Part shown: piece after piece, positions 16,886-26,098 of the stretch
Numbering within the stretch: the stretch's first letter is position 1
Layout of the letters: the number at the start of each line of letters is the position of its first letter
Assembly: GCA_026014705.1 (NCBI GenBank)
Contig: JAOZHU010000012.1
Location: 1 to 64,000 of the forward strand
Length of the DNA stretch: 64,000 nt
Reading direction: 5' to 3'
Source of the DNA: Candidatus Bathyarchaeota archaeon
GTDB lineage: Archaea; Thermoproteota; Bathyarchaeia; Bathyarchaeales; Bathycorpusculaceae
Notes under the pieces: generated by a model
What the model was told of the DNA's origin: nothing
What the model saw: the letters and a program-made list of their open reading frames with translations, nothing else
Databases searched by the model: none
Translations under genes and position numbers: made by a program

Positions 16886-17338
16886 TTAGGGTTGCATTTT
16901 GGTTATTTCTTTGACTCGGGATTCTATGAACTCGGCGACTTTTTGTTCGCTGTACGTTCTTTCGGCTTCTTGAATCTTTAGCTGTTGGTTCACGATTTCT
17001 AGAAGTTTTTCCATGTCGACTGGTTTCATGAGGTATGCGTCGGCTCTATTGTTTACGGCGTCGATGGCGTTTTGCATTGAAGGATAACCTGTTAGTATTA
17101 TTTTCCGAGTCTTGGGCACTGTGTCTTTCATATTCGTTAGTAGTTCTGTGCCTTCCATGTCGGGCAGACGGATGTCAATTAAAGCTACACTGTAAGCTGA
17201 GGTTTCGGCTTTTTTTATGGCTTCGTTTCCACTTGCTGCTACGTCGACGTCGTATCCTTCGTTTTTGAGTATGGCTTCGATGGTGATTCTTATGTTTTCG
17301 TCGTCGTCCACGACAAGGATTCGGGCAGGTTTATCCAT
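16886..17338 (-). CDS. Response regulator, receiver domain only
   Basis: Receiver protein of 150 residues, phosphorylated by the neighbouring kinase. Residues 5-120 form the domain: acidic pocket DDDE at 11-14, phosphoacceptor Asp55 in VALIDIRLPD, Thr83 in IILTGYPS and Lys105 in AYLMKPVDM. The C-terminal ~30 residues are a charged helix, not a DNA-binding domain, so output must be by protein contact. Its start overlaps the end of the nine-PAS kinase gene by 49 nt in another frame; the domain begins only four residues after the ATG, so the overlap is real. The pair is one operon. Confidence 0.9.
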   Translation of the reverse strand: MDKPARILVVDDDENIRITIEAILKNEGYDVDVAASGNEAIKKAETSAYSVALIDIRLPDMEGTELLTNMKDTVPKTRKIILTGYPSMQNAIDAVNNRADAYLMKPVDMEKLLEIVNQQLKIQEAERTYSEQKVAEFIESRVKEITKMQP

Positions 17339-20300
17339 GCGAGTCCACCTCCATTTTTCAGTTTTGGCTCTATTGGAAGTATGATTGTGAAGGTTGAGCC
17401 TTTACCTTCCCTAGTTTGAACTGTGATTTTGCCTTGGTGGGCTTCCACTATGCGTTTGCAGATGGCTAAGCCGAAGCCCATGCCCTGCGCTTTGGTTGTG
17501 ACTAAGGGCGAGAAGAGTCTGTGTAACATTTCTTTGGGTATGCCTGTTCCTGTGTCTGTGAAAGAAATTTTCACGTTGCCGTCTGTTTGGCTACTTTTTA
17601 TCCGCAATGTTCCGCCTTCAGGCATTGCGTCGATGGCGTTTTTGATTATGTTAATGAAGACTCTTGCCATTTTGGTTTTGTCTGCTTTAATCAGGGGTTT
17701 CTCTTGTGCGTTGTTTGCTATGTGGATTTTGTTTGGGACGCGGATTAGGGTTAAGGTTTCGTTCAGAATTGACCGCGGTGTGCATTCTGTTAGGTCTAAG
17801 TGCATTTCCCGTGCGTAGTCTTGCAGGTCGCCGATTATTTTGTCTGCATGCGTGACGGCGTTGTCGATTATTGCGAGCATTTTTTTGCCGTTGTCGCCTA
17901 ATTTTGATGACTCTTTCACTTTTAGGTAGTATGCTGCGTTTTTGATGCCTGTTAACGGGTTGCGCAGGTCGTGCCCAACCATGCCTGCCAATTCACCGAT
18001 GGCGGCTAGTCGCTCTAGTTTCAGCAGGTTTGCTTGTGCAGTTTGGAGTTCTCTTGTTCGGGAGGTTATGGCTTTTTCCAGTTTTTCCGAGTATTCTCTA
18101 GCCATCTGTTCGTTTTGTTTCTGTTCGGTAATGTCTTTGGCTACTCCAACGGCGTGCCATTTGTTGCCCAGTTTTATTGGTGACAATGAGAGCTTGATTG
18201 GAAATTCGGTGCCGCCTTTTCTGGTTGCAGTCAGCTCTATAGTTTCGTTGATGAAGTTGCCTTTTCCTGTTTGAGCGAATTGTGCAACTCCTTCCGTCAT
18301 TGCTTCTTTTCCTTCTGGGCAGAATGAAGATGGAACCACCAGTTCATGCACTTTGCGACCAACTGCTTCTTCGCGTGTGTAGCCGAAGGTTTTTTCGGCG
18401 GCTGGGTTCCAGTATTCAATTATTTCTTTGTCATTAACCAAGATTATGGCGTCTCGGACGGAATTGCTTATGGCGCGGAATTTTTCTTCTGATACTCGCA
18501 AGTCTTCTTCGGCTTTCTTGGCTTCAGTAATGTTTATGTCTGTCCCTCTGTATCCGACGAGTTTACCTTCGTCATCAACTATCGGCACCCCGCTGGTTGA
18601 CAACCAAACTGCCTTACCGTTCTTATGGACATTCTTGTTGAGCAAACCGTGAAAAGACTGCTTCTTCCTAAAAGCCTCGAATGCTGCTTTCTTGATTTGC
18701 TTCCGATTTTCTGGGTGGAATAGGTCGTAGAACCGCTTTTTCCCAACAATTTCCTCAGGGCTATAACCTAAGATTTTTTCTACTACTGGGCTAGAGTAGG
18801 TATACATGCCTTCAGGGTCAACTTCCCAAATCCATTCTTCAGCGTTTTCTGCTACTTGCTTGAAGCGCTCTTCACTCTCGCGTAGCGCTTTTTCTTTTTG
18901 TTTCCGTTCAGTGATGTCTTTCACTGTGGAAACGAAAAATGCGACTTTTCCTGAGGATTGGAGAACGGGACTTGTGGAGAGTTCGCCTAGAAATTCGCGA
19001 CCGTTCTTGGTGCGGAAAATGTACTCTGCGTTTATCAAAGTGTTTCCTTGCCGCTCAAAGTTTTCGGCAGCTCTTGCTTGTGCTCTTTCTGCGAAAAATT
19101 CACGAACGTTTCTTCCAATTACTTCGCTCTTTGTGGAGTAGCCAAACATTTTTAATGCGGCAGAGTTGCAGTCAATTATTGTTGAACCTGGGGATGAGAC
19201 CGCTATCGGGTCTGGTGATGCCTCGAAGATTCCTCTAAGTTTTTCTTCATTCTCACACAAGGCTTCTTCGATTCTCTTCTTTTCGGTGATGTCTTCGCAT
19301 GCGCCGAAAAGTCGCTGACCTGAGGGATTTTCTTCGTCAGTTATTACCCGAGATGAGACTTTGAGCCAACGTGTTGAGCCATCTTTGTTTGTGATTCTTA
19401 ATTCACAGACGCTGGATTGACCAAGTTTTAGTCCTATTACTTTTTCGTTGAATATTGGCAGGTCTTGGGGCTGGACAGTGAATTTCCAGCAACTTTCATT
19501 TTTTATTTCCGTTGGTGAATAGCCGAATATTTTTTCCGTTGCACCAGCCATCCAATCGATGTGAAAACTCGCCTTGTCATTAACTTTTAAGCAGGAAAAC
19601 AAAAAGTCTGCTGTCATTTGTGAAATGACTCGGTGTTTCTCCTCGCTCTTCCTTAAGGCTTCTTCTGCTTCTTTGCGCTCGGTCACGTCGTTGTAGACGG
19701 CTACTATATTGCCGTTTGGCAGTTTGTATACCCAGTTTTCTCTCCACCCAAAAATGCGGCCATCTTTGTATATTTTGCTTGGCAGATATTCCGCTTGCCC
19801 CGTCCGATAGACTCGTTTAAAAACATTTAGCAGACTTAACTCTTTGATTCCTGGGAAAACTTCGGTCACCCGCTTGCCCAGCAGGTTCTTCCTGGCGATT
19901 TTCTCTATTCTCTCGGCAGTTTGGTTAAAATCCACAAAAGCAAAGTCGTCGCCGTTGTCTACTGCTCTGTAAACTGCGACGCCGCTTGGAATCGTGTTGA
20001 ACAGTTGTCTGTATCTGGCTTCGGCATCTCTAATAATCTCTTCTGTTTTTTTGCGTTCAGAAATGTCTCTAATTACCATGCTTGTTTTGGCGACACCTTC
20101 TGTGTCTGTGAAGACAATCGATGAGACTTCGCCGATAAAAGTTGTGCCGTCTTTTCGTATAAATGTAAGCTCAGCCCTTGTACGACCAGTCTGTTCGCGC
20201 TCCTTCAGCGCTGCTGCCAGATTCGCGTCTTTTACTACTATGCCTTCTCTTCCAGCTTGTTTAACCTCTTCTTCTGTCATGCCTAACATGCGGCATGCTT

Positions 20301-21618
20301 GAGGATTCGCAGCGAGAATTGTGCCATCAGGTTTTGTCAGCATTATACCGTCAAAACTGTTCTCGAACAAGCTGCGGTACTGCGCTTCGCTTTGCTCCAG
20401 CGCCGACTGTGCTTTCTGGCGTTCCGTGATGTCCGTTATGAATGCGAAATAATGCGCCACATCCCCGTTGCAGTCAAGAAAAGGATGCACAAACAGTTCT
20501 ATTGGGACTATAGACCCGTCTTTGCGAATGTACTCTTTCTGGTACCGCACAGGTTTCTTTGTGCTTTGAAGTTCTGCCAATTTGGCTTTTTCGAATTCTG
20601 CGTACTCAGGAGGCGTAAGCGTAGTCGCCCAGTTAATCTTCTCAAGTTCTCTTGCGCTGTATCCTGTCAGTTTTTCAAAAGCGGCATTGACCAGCCCTAA
20701 GCGCCCATCAGGGTAACCCACAGCAACAGCAACAGAAGCGTTTCTAACAAGCTCTGCGAGGAAATGCTCTCTCTCGAGGCTATCCTTCAGCGCGGCTTCA
20801 ACTTCCTTGCGCTCAGAAACATCGCGTACGATTCCTAAAAGGCAGGTTGCCCCCTTGAAATTCATCAAGGCAACCGAGAGTTCTGCTGGAAACTCTGTCC
20901 CATCTTTTCTGCGGGCAGTGAATTCAAGAAATTCTCCTAAAGGCAGTTGTTTGCTCTGAACCTTCTGGGCAAAAACTTTTTGAAAACCATGGTCTCGCTG
21001 GGGTATTATCAGGTTCAGCACGTTCTTGCCTACTGCTTCTTCTTGGCGGTAGCCAAATATTTGTTCCGCAGCAGGATTCCAATAGACAACCTCGCCTTCA
21101 GAGTTAACTGCAACAATAGCATCTGTTGCACAAGTGCTTATTGTACGGAACTTTTCCTCACTCTCTTTAATTTCCCTAATTTTCTCTTCAACAAGCGCCT
21201 CCATCATCTCGGCGTATTCCTTAATCCGCCTCGCATTTTCCTTTCTCCTTGTAACATCATGGAAAAGCACAAGGTCAGCAGGCTGCCCAGCGTAAGTAAT
21301 TCTTTTTCCCTTTACCTCAACATAGCGTCTCTCACCTGCACTGTTTTGAAAAGCTACCTCATACGGCGCCACAGAAAGACCTTGCAGTCTTCTGCTCAAG
21401 TTCTGCAAAAGCTGCGCCTTGCTTTCGGCAGGCAAGAAACCAAAGCTCAAGAAAGGCATTCCGATTATTTCCTTCGTTTTCAAACCCGTTACTTTCTCGA
21501 ATTCATCGTTCACCATAATTAGAAGCCCTTGCTGGTCAACTATAACCGCTGGATCAGACAACAGATTCAAAAGAACTCTAGCTTTTCCCTCAAAACCCCT
21601 GGAGCCTTTTCCACTCAT
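17290..21618 (-). CDS. Cytoplasmic histidine kinase with nine PAS domains
   Basis: Sensor kinase of 1442 residues with no membrane helix. Nine PAS/PAC modules follow one another at intervals of ~125 residues (starts near 15, 155, 285, 410, 535, 660, 795, 920 and 1045), each ending in DITERK- or DVSERK-like PAC text. The HisKA helix has the phosphoacceptor His1216 in GMVGHDLRNPLTGIKNAAYY, and the ATPase domain shows NAIDAMPEGG (N box), DTGTGIP (G1) and GMGFGLAICKRIVEAHQG (G2). It probably senses redox state or small ligands. It overlaps the small gene upstream by 4 nt and the response regulator downstream by 49 nt. The tail after IILPIEP is shaped by that overlap. Confidence 0.93.
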   Translation of the reverse strand: MSGKGSRGFEGKARVLLNLLSDPAVIVDQQGLLIMVNDEFEKVTGLKTKEIIGMPFLSFGFLPAESKAQLLQNLSRRLQGLSVAPYEVAFQNSAGERRYVEVKGKRITYAGQPADLVLFHDVTRRKENARRIKEYAEMMEALVEEKIREIKESEEKFRTISTCATDAIVAVNSEGEVVYWNPAAEQIFGYRQEEAVGKNVLNLIIPQRDHGFQKVFAQKVQSKQLPLGEFLEFTARRKDGTEFPAELSVALMNFKGATCLLGIVRDVSERKEVEAALKDSLEREHFLAELVRNASVAVAVGYPDGRLGLVNAAFEKLTGYSARELEKINWATTLTPPEYAEFEKAKLAELQSTKKPVRYQKEYIRKDGSIVPIELFVHPFLDCNGDVAHYFAFITDITERQKAQSALEQSEAQYRSLFENSFDGIMLTKPDGTILAANPQACRMLGMTEEEVKQAGREGIVVKDANLAAALKEREQTGRTRAELTFIRKDGTTFIGEVSSIVFTDTEGVAKTSMVIRDISERKKTEEIIRDAEARYRQLFNTIPSGVAVYRAVDNGDDFAFVDFNQTAERIEKIARKNLLGKRVTEVFPGIKELSLLNVFKRVYRTGQAEYLPSKIYKDGRIFGWRENWVYKLPNGNIVAVYNDVTERKEAEEALRKSEEKHRVISQMTADFLFSCLKVNDKASFHIDWMAGATEKIFGYSPTEIKNESCWKFTVQPQDLPIFNEKVIGLKLGQSSVCELRITNKDGSTRWLKVSSRVITDEENPSGQRLFGACEDITEKKRIEEALCENEEKLRGIFEASPDPIAVSSPGSTIIDCNSAALKMFGYSTKSEVIGRNVREFFAERAQARAAENFERQGNTLINAEYIFRTKNGREFLGELSTSPVLQSSGKVAFFVSTVKDITERKQKEKALRESEERFKQVAENAEEWIWEVDPEGMYTYSSPVVEKILGYSPEEIVGKKRFYDLFHPENRKQIKKAAFEAFRKKQSFHGLLNKNVHKNGKAVWLSTSGVPIVDDEGKLVGYRGTDINITEAKKAEEDLRVSEEKFRAISNSVRDAIILVNDKEIIEYWNPAAEKTFGYTREEAVGRKVHELVVPSSFCPEGKEAMTEGVAQFAQTGKGNFINETIELTATRKGGTEFPIKLSLSPIKLGNKWHAVGVAKDITEQKQNEQMAREYSEKLEKAITSRTRELQTAQANLLKLERLAAIGELAGMVGHDLRNPLTGIKNAAYYLKVKESSKLGDNGKKMLAIIDNAVTHADKIIGDLQDYAREMHLDLTECTPRSILNETLTLIRVPNKIHIANNAQEKPLIKADKTKMARVFINIIKNAIDAMPEGGTLRIKSSQTDGNVKISFTDTGTGIPKEMLHRLFSPLVTTKAQGMGFGLAICKRIVEAHQGKITVQTREGKGSTFTIILPIEPKLKNGGGLAWINLPESLSWTTTKT

Positions 21619-22220: not shown

Positions 22221-24302
22221 CTAAATAATCTGCCAGTTCTCCCTGCCACTCTGGTTAAACTTTGGAACTGTAACCACAAAACGCGCGCCCTTCCCCGGCT
22301 CACCAACTTCCCGAATAGCCCAACCGTAAACATCCATCATCCTCTTAATCAAAAACAAACCGAAACCTGTGCCGCCGCCAGTGCTGAAACCCTCAGTGAA
22401 AAGCTTCTGCTTGTCCTCTACCGCAATGCCCACGCCATCATCTTCATAAATCAACAGCAACGCATCCTCACCGCTTCGCTCATAAAAAACCCGCGCAACC
22501 GCCGCTTTAACCCCGTATTTCCGAGTATTATCCAGCAAATTATAGAAAAACTGCCGCAGAAAAGAATCAGCAAGCAAACTCAACCCCCTGCAATCGTTAA
22601 CAACTTTGAAACTTAAGCCAGAAAAAAGCGCCACAGCCTCATCCACCGTCCTCGCCACATCAACATACTTCAACTCCTCAACTCCCAACTGCTCATACAA
22701 ACGGGCAAACTCGAAAATCCGCATAGAATCCCCCACAGCCTTCTCCATACTGCTCGCCGCATCAACAATATCCGCGTGGTCAGCGTACTTCTTCTTAAGC
22801 AAAAACGAGAAACCCGTCACCGCACTAAGCTTATTGCGAACATCATGCCTAGTTAAACCTCCAGAAACACGCAACTTCTCATTCATAACCTCAATCTTGC
22901 GAGCACTCTCCTTCAGCTTTTCTTCAGCGTTCCTGCGTTGAATCAACCGCCACATGTCAGTCACAATCGGCGTCACCGACCGCGCATCCAATTCACTGTA
23001 ACTCTCAGCCTTGTTCGCAACCGCCGCAATCGCGACAACCCGCTCTTTCTCAAACACGGGCACCCCAAGATAACGCTTAATCGGCACATGCCCCTCAGGA
23101 TAACCTTTCTTATGCGGAAAAGGCGCCGAGTAATCATTAATGAACACGGGCTTCCGTTGCCGTACCGGCTCAGCCCACACACCTGCTTCCGATATGGGGT
23201 AGTGCATCGGTTTCAATATCGTTTTGCATTCTTTCATCGCGGTTTGCGACCAAGAATGAATAGTCATAACCGTTTCATCCTCATTCAAAAGACCAATGAA
23301 GGCGAATTCGCTTGAAGTCACCCTTTCAATCGCCCCCAACGCGAAATCCATAACCTCCTTCTCAGAAGCCTCCACCATCTTATTGAGCTCAAGCATAGCC
23401 TGCAACCGCCGTTCATGCAAAATCAACCTCTCCTCAGCCTGCTTACGCTCAGTAATGTCCAACCCATACAGGTTAACGTAACCCGCATCAGCCACAGGCG
23501 CAGCAACAAAAAGAAAAGTGCGCCCACCATATTTAACCTCAAACTCGCAACGTAGACCGCAATCTAACTGGATGAAACTTGGCAGAGGCTTACCAACCGC
23601 TATCTCGCCGCCCCCAAACAGACCCATGGCAGCAGGGTTTGCGTACAGAATAACGCCATCCCGCGAGACGCGAAGCACGGGATCCGGGTTCTCTGAAGCT
23701 AATCTTGCCAAATTAGCAATTTCCTCATGTGCCTGAAACGCCTTAAAACGGTAAGCCTCCAGAATCCGAGAGGTTGAGAAACCTATAACGTTAGCCAAAA
23801 CCAGACTGAGAGTGACGGAGAACAACTCTGGAACCGCCAAAGCCTTCGTCACCAATAGCAATATCAACATTTCTCCAAGAGAGGCAACTGCAGACAAGAT
23901 GACCTTGCTGAGAAAACGCTGCGGAATAACGAGATAAATAATAACAATCGTCGCGATGACGATGATCACGTGGAACAGAAAATTCTGCGGACGCGAAGCA
24001 TTGATAACCGTGCTGACAACTACTCCAACAAGCCCCCACGCGAAGACTGCCCGGTCATAAAGGCGAAAGCTTTCAACCCGATTGAAATAAGCTAATAGCC
24101 AAACAGTGAAGGCTAAAAACCACAGCCTCAAAGCAGACAACACGTAAAACTCCAGCGACAAACCGAAAAACTGGAAATCATTGAAAACATACAGCAGCAA
24201 CGGTACTATAAGCAGAAACACGCCGACTTTGGCTTGCTTGATGTCTGCAGTCAGATTGAACTGCCTGTACCGCGCTTCTAATTCAGACGACATGCTGCAC
24301 AA
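22221..24302 (-). CDS. Membrane histidine kinase with PAS and GAF domains
   Basis: Sensor kinase of 693 residues. Residues ~25-185 hold six or seven membrane helices (for example VGVFLLIVPLLLYVF and FHVIIVIATIVIIYLVIP). A PAS domain follows at ~200-295 (ENPDPVLRVSRDGVILYANP, GLDITERKQAE) and a GAF domain at ~305-455 (FAFIGLLNEDETVMTIHSWS, YLGVPVFEKERVVAIAAVAN). The kinase core has His486 in GGLTRHDVRNKLSAVTGF, NLLDNTRKYG (N box), EDDGVGIAVEDK (G1) and GGGTGFGLFLIKRMMDVYGW (G2). No receiver gene is directly attached; it lies 93 nt upstream of the NitrOD5-like gene on the same strand and may share its response regulator. Confidence 0.92.
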   Translation of the reverse strand: MCSMSSELEARYRQFNLTADIKQAKVGVFLLIVPLLLYVFNDFQFFGLSLEFYVLSALRLWFLAFTVWLLAYFNRVESFRLYDRAVFAWGLVGVVVSTVINASRPQNFLFHVIIVIATIVIIYLVIPQRFLSKVILSAVASLGEMLILLLVTKALAVPELFSVTLSLVLANVIGFSTSRILEAYRFKAFQAHEEIANLARLASENPDPVLRVSRDGVILYANPAAMGLFGGGEIAVGKPLPSFIQLDCGLRCEFEVKYGGRTFLFVAAPVADAGYVNLYGLDITERKQAEERLILHERRLQAMLELNKMVEASEKEVMDFALGAIERVTSSEFAFIGLLNEDETVMTIHSWSQTAMKECKTILKPMHYPISEAGVWAEPVRQRKPVFINDYSAPFPHKKGYPEGHVPIKRYLGVPVFEKERVVAIAAVANKAESYSELDARSVTPIVTDMWRLIQRRNAEEKLKESARKIEVMNEKLRVSGGLTRHDVRNKLSAVTGFSFLLKKKYADHADIVDAASSMEKAVGDSMRIFEFARLYEQLGVEELKYVDVARTVDEAVALFSGLSFKVVNDCRGLSLLADSFLRQFFYNLLDNTRKYGVKAAVARVFYERSGEDALLLIYEDDGVGIAVEDKQKLFTEGFSTGGGTGFGLFLIKRMMDVYGWAIREVGEPGKGARFVVTVPKFNQSGRENWQII

Positions 24303-24711: not shown

Positions 24712-25638
24712 CTATCGCAATATTATTTGGATTATCACTAAGATTGTTATTAGCACGGGCAAGAATCGTTTGGCTTTCATGTTAACTTTGATTGCCTCGT
24801 CGCTCTTTTTGCAGTCTACGAGCCGCATGATGTACACCGAAGTGGCAAGGTTATAGAGGAAAATGGCGTATATTGAGAGCATCATCCTATCCGCGAAAGT
24901 GAGATACCCCGTTGGTGGAATACCGCTAATTAACGACAGGTGAAACGTCGTAGCCGACATGAGAGTAGTCACGCCTAACGTTATCCTCTGAGCGAAATTC
25001 TGTGGAGACATGAAAAACGCAAGCAAGGAAATAGTGGTAATAATGGCGACAGGGAGGACGCTTTTTATGAACGATGAAAGTGCTGGTCGGTTCAAGTCAA
25101 CGCTGAATATAAAACGCGAGTAGATGTCTTCTCCATAGGAGTGCCCCGTGGTCTTTGTTCGGAAGCCTTCCAACGTCCAACCTGAGACACTTGCGTCAGG
25201 ATCTATGTTTGAGTCAACAGCACCTTCAAAAATCAGTTGGCTATTATCCAGAGTTTTATGTTCAATCTCAACGGTTAATTCATGTGTTTCAAACTGGTAA
25301 TTGGAGAAATCAAAAGAATTAATGAAATCTCCCCTTACACGGTACTCCAAATATCCAGCAGCACCATCAGTTTTTACCTCATATTTCGTGGGTGCACCAT
25401 TAATAAACTCAAAGTTCCTAATTTCATCAATGCTTATTTCCGAAGGGTTGAATCTGAACCATAAGTAAAAATCCAGTCGGTAACTGTTAGCGCTGAGGTC
25501 AACCTTTTCTACATTCACGAGCCATACACCAACCTCTACCCGAGTTGGATTCACTGAAGCGCCACGCGCTGCTGTATTCCCAGCTAGAAGCGCTAAGAGA
25601 GTGAAAGATAGAATTGCAATGGCAACCCATTTTTTCAT
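24712..25638 (-). CDS. Pentameric ligand-gated ion channel (Cys-loop superfamily) homologue
   Basis: Protein of 308 residues with the full prokaryotic pLGIC layout. Residues 1-26 are a signal peptide. The beta-sandwich ligand-binding domain (~30-185) has VEVGVWLVNVEKVDLSANSY, DFYLWFRFNP and a Cys-less loop FDFSNYQFETHEL at the position of the Cys-loop. Four membrane helices follow: M1 at ~190-209 with the conserved Pro196, M2 at ~215-237 (AQRITLGVTTLMSATTFHLS) lining the pore, M3 at ~247-272 after the loop ISGIPPTGYLTFADRM, and M4 at ~290-307. The M2-M3 loop with Pro and Tyr-x-Thr matches the GLIC/ELIC family. It would form a homopentamer in the membrane; ligand and ion selectivity are unknown. 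Such channels are uncommon in archaea. It stands alone. Confidence 0.85.
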   Translation of the reverse strand: MKKWVAIAILSFTLLALLAGNTAARGASVNPTRVEVGVWLVNVEKVDLSANSYRLDFYLWFRFNPSEISIDEIRNFEFINGAPTKYEVKTDGAAGYLEYRVRGDFINSFDFSNYQFETHELTVEIEHKTLDNSQLIFEGAVDSNIDPDASVSGWTLEGFRTKTTGHSYGEDIYSRFIFSVDLNRPALSSFIKSVLPVAIITTISLLAFFMSPQNFAQRITLGVTTLMSATTFHLSLISGIPPTGYLTFADRMMLSIYAIFLYNLATSVYIMRLVDCKKSDEAIKVNMKAKRFLPVLITILVIIQIILR

Positions 25639-26098
25639 TGAACTTCGTCTCCTTTCACTATTCAGAAGTTGTCTCTTATAATCGAATCATGTATTTAAGA
25701 ATTTTGAGACAACAAATCATAGTTTGCTCATGGCAGTAAATGGGATAAACACAATTCTTTAATCACTGGAAAAAGAACGCTTTTGCCTCTTCAATTGGCG
25801 CCTTGGTTTTTATCGGCGCTGTCGTCTGGTTCGAATATAGAAAGGTTAAGGTTTGAACAAAATGTGGCTGCGCTAACGAAAGTGGTTTTGAACAGAAAAG
25901 CCTTTTTCTACAATTCATGCTTGACGAGGCGTTTTGTGAATAATTGTGTAGATTGTTTTTGGAGTTTGCGTGGGGTTTAGGCACGGATCACAACTTTTCA
26001 GATTTTCAGCTGAATTTTACGAAAAACGTGATTTACATGGGAAAAATCCCATTCTATCGCTAATTTAAATACGTTATTCGCATATTTGTTAAAGAAAA
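25639..26098. other. Intergenic stretch between the channel gene and the lysine operon
   Basis: Divergent promoter region of 460 nt. Two overlapping open frames of 65 and 73 codons on opposite strands (around 25763-25984) have no ribosome-binding site and no recognisable product, and I do not call them. The sequence is AT-rich, with no repeat or RNA structure I can support. Confidence 0.4.

Follow-up and report, generated by a model that had tools for sequence, protein, structure and literature searches.

The window, that is, the whole stretch of 64,000 nucleotides of bathyarchaeal DNA analysed here, encodes on its minus strand (24712-25638) a 308-residue subunit of a pentameric ligand-gated ion channel (pLGIC) in which the proline of the F/YPxD loop, the most conserved residue of the superfamily, is replaced by glutamine (Gln115). 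The protein is thus an archaeal relative of the channels responsible for fast signalling in animal nerves. Jaiteh et al. 2016 found this proline in 100% of 561 pLGICs (their Table 1) as the sole absolutely conserved residue, and argued that it is a cis-proline and a defining feature of the superfamily (PMC4795631); the figure dates from 2016, and further members lacking the proline may be known by now.

That the gene product is a pLGIC follows from profiles, sequence, predicted fold and orthologues, all of which agree with the preliminary description on this point. The open reading frame, whose strand the preliminary description did not give, starts with ATG at 25638, ends with TAG at 24714-24712, and is preceded by a putative Shine-Dalgarno-like sequence, GAAAGGAG, 10 bases 5′ of the ATG (25649..25656). 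Pfam PF02932 (Neur_chan_memb) matches the protein with E=1.7e-7 and 32.2 bits (gathering cut-off 28.1), while the NCBIfam models TIGR00860 (LIC; 2.4e-16) and NF033918 (LGIC_1; 6.6e-11) match with scores below their curated cut-offs. The preliminary description had called for both Neur_chan profiles and held that failure of both, or a different fold, would speak against it; the profile for the extracellular domain, PF02931 (Neur_chan_LBD), matches neither the window protein, a point against the reading, nor any protein of the control genomes; this domain is covered by TIGR00860, the alignment to GLIC and the predicted fold. With PF02932 matched and the fold that of a pLGIC, the proposed refutation does not hold. 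GLIC is the best sequence match in the PDB (E=2.2e-15, residues 63-299) and also leads a Foldseek search of the PDB (E 2.9e-21, probability 1.00, TM about 0.74) with the AlphaFold model, a single-chain prediction that used 19 relatives besides the window protein (mean pLDDT 83.7); the top matches are all pLGICs, and the best 50 also include sTeLIC, GlyR and GABA-A receptors.

The model shows a signal helix, a β-sandwich and four helices, in this order. An N-terminal signal-like hydrophobic helix (residues 1-25, 25564..25638; 2-23 in the model) and a low-confidence link (pLDDT <50 at 24-28) are followed by the extracellular β-sandwich (residues 30-183, 25090..25551; 32-183 in the model), which includes Trp154 of the domain core, and immediately thereafter by the pre-M1 Arg184. 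Four helices complete the protein: M1 (186-208, 25015..25083) with its kink proline Pro196, M2 (215-238), M3 (248-275, 24814..24897), and M4 (279-307, 24718..24804), the last separated from M3 by only a very short link, with no intracellular domain. Pro241 and Tyr245 are present in the M2-M3 loop, and the cysteine pair of Cys-loop receptors is absent, the sole cysteine being located after M3. All parts named in the preliminary description, from the signal peptide and β-sandwich to M3-M4, are found; its assertion of a "full prokaryotic pLGIC pattern" fails at the loop proline. A search for a second channel gene in the same genome found none.

The loop in question reads YQFE in place of F/YPxD, with Gln115 encoded by CAG (25294..25296) and Glu117 (25288..25290), the presumed salt-bridge partner of Arg184, at the site of the aspartate; glutamate occupies the latter site in the bathyarchaeal orthologues as well. 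The remaining conserved residues of Table 1 in PMC4795631 are retained as Trp154, Arg184, Pro196 and Pro241. A proline at the tip of the β6-β7 loop, the literal Pro-loop criterion of Jaiteh et al. 2016, is therefore absent, and the protein counts as a pLGIC by descent and fold but, taken strictly, not as a Pro-loop receptor. Displacement of the proline within the loop was ruled out, as the stretch between residues 83 and 147 is free of proline. Among 82 intact relatives aligned, the site is occupied by proline in 79, by glutamine in two (the window protein and the orthologue L088) and by leucine in one; all 29 other intact bathyarchaeal orthologues compared have proline. L088 comes from another genus, its protein is 69% identical to that of the window, and both use the codon CAG, for which reason a sequencing error or frameshift was rejected as the source of Gln115. 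The two form a sister pair (support 98/91) in a tree built without the column of the loop residue, which had been masked. The leucine (YLF) belongs to a paralogous pLGIC encoded by a Desulfobacterales genome (L047:3594-4469), and given this protein the proline may have been lost more than once.

The remainder of the gene is constrained. At 106 positions which are near-invariant (conserved in at least 27 of the 29 other bathyarchaeal orthologues) the window protein deviates once, namely at Pro115; and between window and L088 a pN of 0.19 and a pS of 0.80 point to strong purifying selection, although silent divergence is near saturation and permits no exact dN/dS. Because the glutamine is common to both genomes and the deviation is the only one of its kind, the exchange of proline for glutamine is real, inherited and embedded in an otherwise constrained gene. 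Residues shared by window and L088 that might compensate for it are merely scattered (9, 92, 181, 266, 283), none obviously at the interface, and models predicted with versus without the proline do not discriminate, loop confidence being about equal (65 vs 68).

Mutants of related channels bear on whether a channel can work with this loop. Replacing Pro119 of GLIC with Ala, Leu or Gly yields no functional receptors (PMC4813548), which counts against a working glutamine channel; this is tempered by the glycine receptor, where P146A is functional with lowered potency and where local aromatic residues were suggested to stabilise a non-prolyl cis bond (PMC9607081). Gln115 is flanked by two aromatics, Tyr114 and Phe116. 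The GLIC mutants would suit an interpretation by which the channel function has already been lost, the gene heading to decay or its product folding and binding ligand without opening, and so would the broken copies present in several relatives, one of which (L013) has serine at the site of the loop proline. We regard this as improbable: the frame is intact in both window and L088, the glutamine is held in common by genomes that differ this much in the channel protein, and had function been lost early, the other 105 near-invariant positions would not have stayed untouched in the window protein. Given this conservation, we favour a channel that still works, though with altered gating, over a dead one, and the glutamine protein is probably functional despite the loss of its proline. 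Elsewhere the loop proline couples binding to gating; the sub-lineage of window and L088 would have to achieve this coupling without a prolyl cis bond, and its gating equilibrium would probably be shifted.

The bathyarchaeal orthologues form a group of 56-73% identity with patchy occurrence; the named relatives at 65-73% are mostly Candidatus Bathyarchaeota MAGs, one being labelled Brockarchaeota. Of the 91 genomes examined from the family, 29 have a match, as do 37 of the 232 from the class, mostly one per genome; these counts take in a few distant or broken copies. Weaker matches are found in other groups of the phylum (about 40% identity) and in sulfur bacteria and Desulfobacterales (about 25%). 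Some sulfur-bacterial and Desulfobacterales proteins of ~690-830 residues (L051, L054, L063, L064, L067, L068, L075, L079, L084, L085) contain a stretch resembling the channel's extracellular domain within a much larger sequence. Copies broken by stops or frameshifts in bathyarchaeal-type genomes (L013, L016/L019, L018/L021, L091) point to repeated loss of the gene and fit the high loss rate that Jaiteh et al. 2016 (PMC4795631) describe. That study already covers Euryarchaeota and Thaumarchaeota, so the preliminary description's remark that such channels are sparsely reported in archaea is fair but dated; Bathyarchaeota are absent from its text (PMC4795631), and among open-licence papers nothing was found on bathyarchaeal channels or on anion-selective prokaryotic pLGICs.

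The pore region bears on selectivity. The segment that runs from the M1 end through pre-M2 and M2 to the M2-M3 loop (residues 204-245, 24904..25029), SLLAFFMSPQNFAQRITLGVTTLMSATTFHLSLISGIPPTGY, aligns without gaps to GluCl, GlyR and GABA-A receptors over 42 residues, a length shared by the window protein, all 31 bathyarchaeal proteins compared and these three receptors, versus 40 for GLIC and ELIC; PDB chains confirmed the segments used for GluCl, ELIC and Torpedo nAChR. Scored against the window segment, GluCl reaches 71, GABA-A 71/63, GlyR 54, nAChR 52, GLIC 48 and ELIC 26; with M1-M3 alone as query, GABA-A receptors come first (2.4e-5), aligned without gaps and ahead of GLIC. At positions -2′/-1′/0′, where the motif is GE[K/R] in animal cation channels and A[R/K] in anion channels (PMC4795631), the window protein has Ala-Gln-Arg and no acidic residue, and an acidic pre-M2 residue is found in none of the 31 bathyarchaeal or the six nearest Nitrososphaeria-type proteins. 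With its non-acidic pre-M2, basic 0′ residue and linker length, the pore thus has features of the anion type, and it is somewhat more probable that it passes anions or selects weakly than that it does not; we go no further since the pre-M2 motif is in general insufficient to predict selectivity in prokaryotes and protists (PMC4795631). The same insufficiency leaves some room for a cation channel like GLIC or ELIC, in which the chloride-channel look of M2 would be inherited sequence without the matching selectivity, and GLIC is indeed the top PDB match of the whole protein, while the nAChR score lies close to that of GlyR. This is nonetheless unlikely, considering the uniform lack of acidic pre-M2 residues, a segment as long as in the anion receptors and two residues above GLIC, and the lead of GABA-A once the transmembrane part is searched by itself.

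Downstream of the channel gene and on the same strand, across a gap of 409 bases, lies a gene for a GAF/HATPase histidine kinase (22221-24302); still further (17290-21618, minus strand) comes the gene for a histidine kinase of 1442 residues, in which PAS-like repeats follow one another many times, then a response-regulator-like open reading frame. Upstream and divergent is a lysine-pathway cluster, its first gene encoding a dihydrodipicolinate synthase family protein. The kinases noticed in the preliminary description are therefore there, and a kinase 43% identical is encoded some 6 kb away from the channel gene of L088. The suggested chemosensory role is nevertheless unsupported, and it is very improbable that the channel provides the input to a sensory system built with these neighbouring kinases, because no neighbour is conserved beyond close relatives (12 loci, then 5 longer ones), no such kinase recurs beside other orthologues, and 409 bases separate the channel gene from the next.

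Taken together, a ligand-gated homopentameric bathyarchaeal channel is quite probable as the overall explanation. We infer a pentamer whose subunits would be exported, with the β-sandwich outside and M2 lining the pore; it would be opened from outside by a ligand or an ion (protons perhaps, as in GLIC), and through a pore mouth of the animal chloride-channel type anions would most likely be conducted, or ions with weak selectivity. The fuller proposition, that this natural pLGIC lineage works and gates in the absence of the universal cis-proline and also has an anion-selective pore, unlike the characterised prokaryotic channels GLIC and ELIC, is tentative and less likely than not. If it is true, a pore of the chloride-channel type exists in archaea. 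An archaeal family with a pore mouth of the animal chloride-channel type bears on the timing of anion selectivity. The loop proline has been presented as the single invariant residue that defines all neurotransmitter-gated channels, and its cis bond as critical for gating; the glutamine sister pair amid proline-bearing orthologues about 70% identical is a natural test of this "essential" cis-proline.

Among channels of solved structure, the whole protein is nearest to GLIC, the proton-gated cation channel of Gloeobacter, with which it shares length, fold, the loop without cysteines, the pre-M1 arginine, the prolines of M1 and of the M2-M3 loop, and the short M3-M4 link; it differs in having Gln for the loop proline, Glu for the aspartate of the loop motif, and a pre-M2 region without Glu, with Arg at 0′ and two extra residues. 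GluCl, GlyR and GABA-A receptors have in common with it the length between M1 and M2, Arg at 0′, the LGVTT core of M2 and the Pro..Tyr M2-M3 loop, whereas the window protein lacks their Cys loop, intracellular domain and universal proline. The Nitrososphaeria (Thaumarchaeota)-type pLGICs (for example L092-L097), a group that Jaiteh et al. 2016 (PMC4795631) had already described, are about 40% identical and have the same non-acidic pre-M2, reading TAR/APR, and the same 42-residue segment; unlike the window protein they retain the loop proline. Closest are the other bathyarchaeal orthologues (for example L002, L022-L032, L107-L118), mostly 56-73% identical and with the same pore, which keep the proline in every intact protein compared, in contrast to the glutamine of window and L088.
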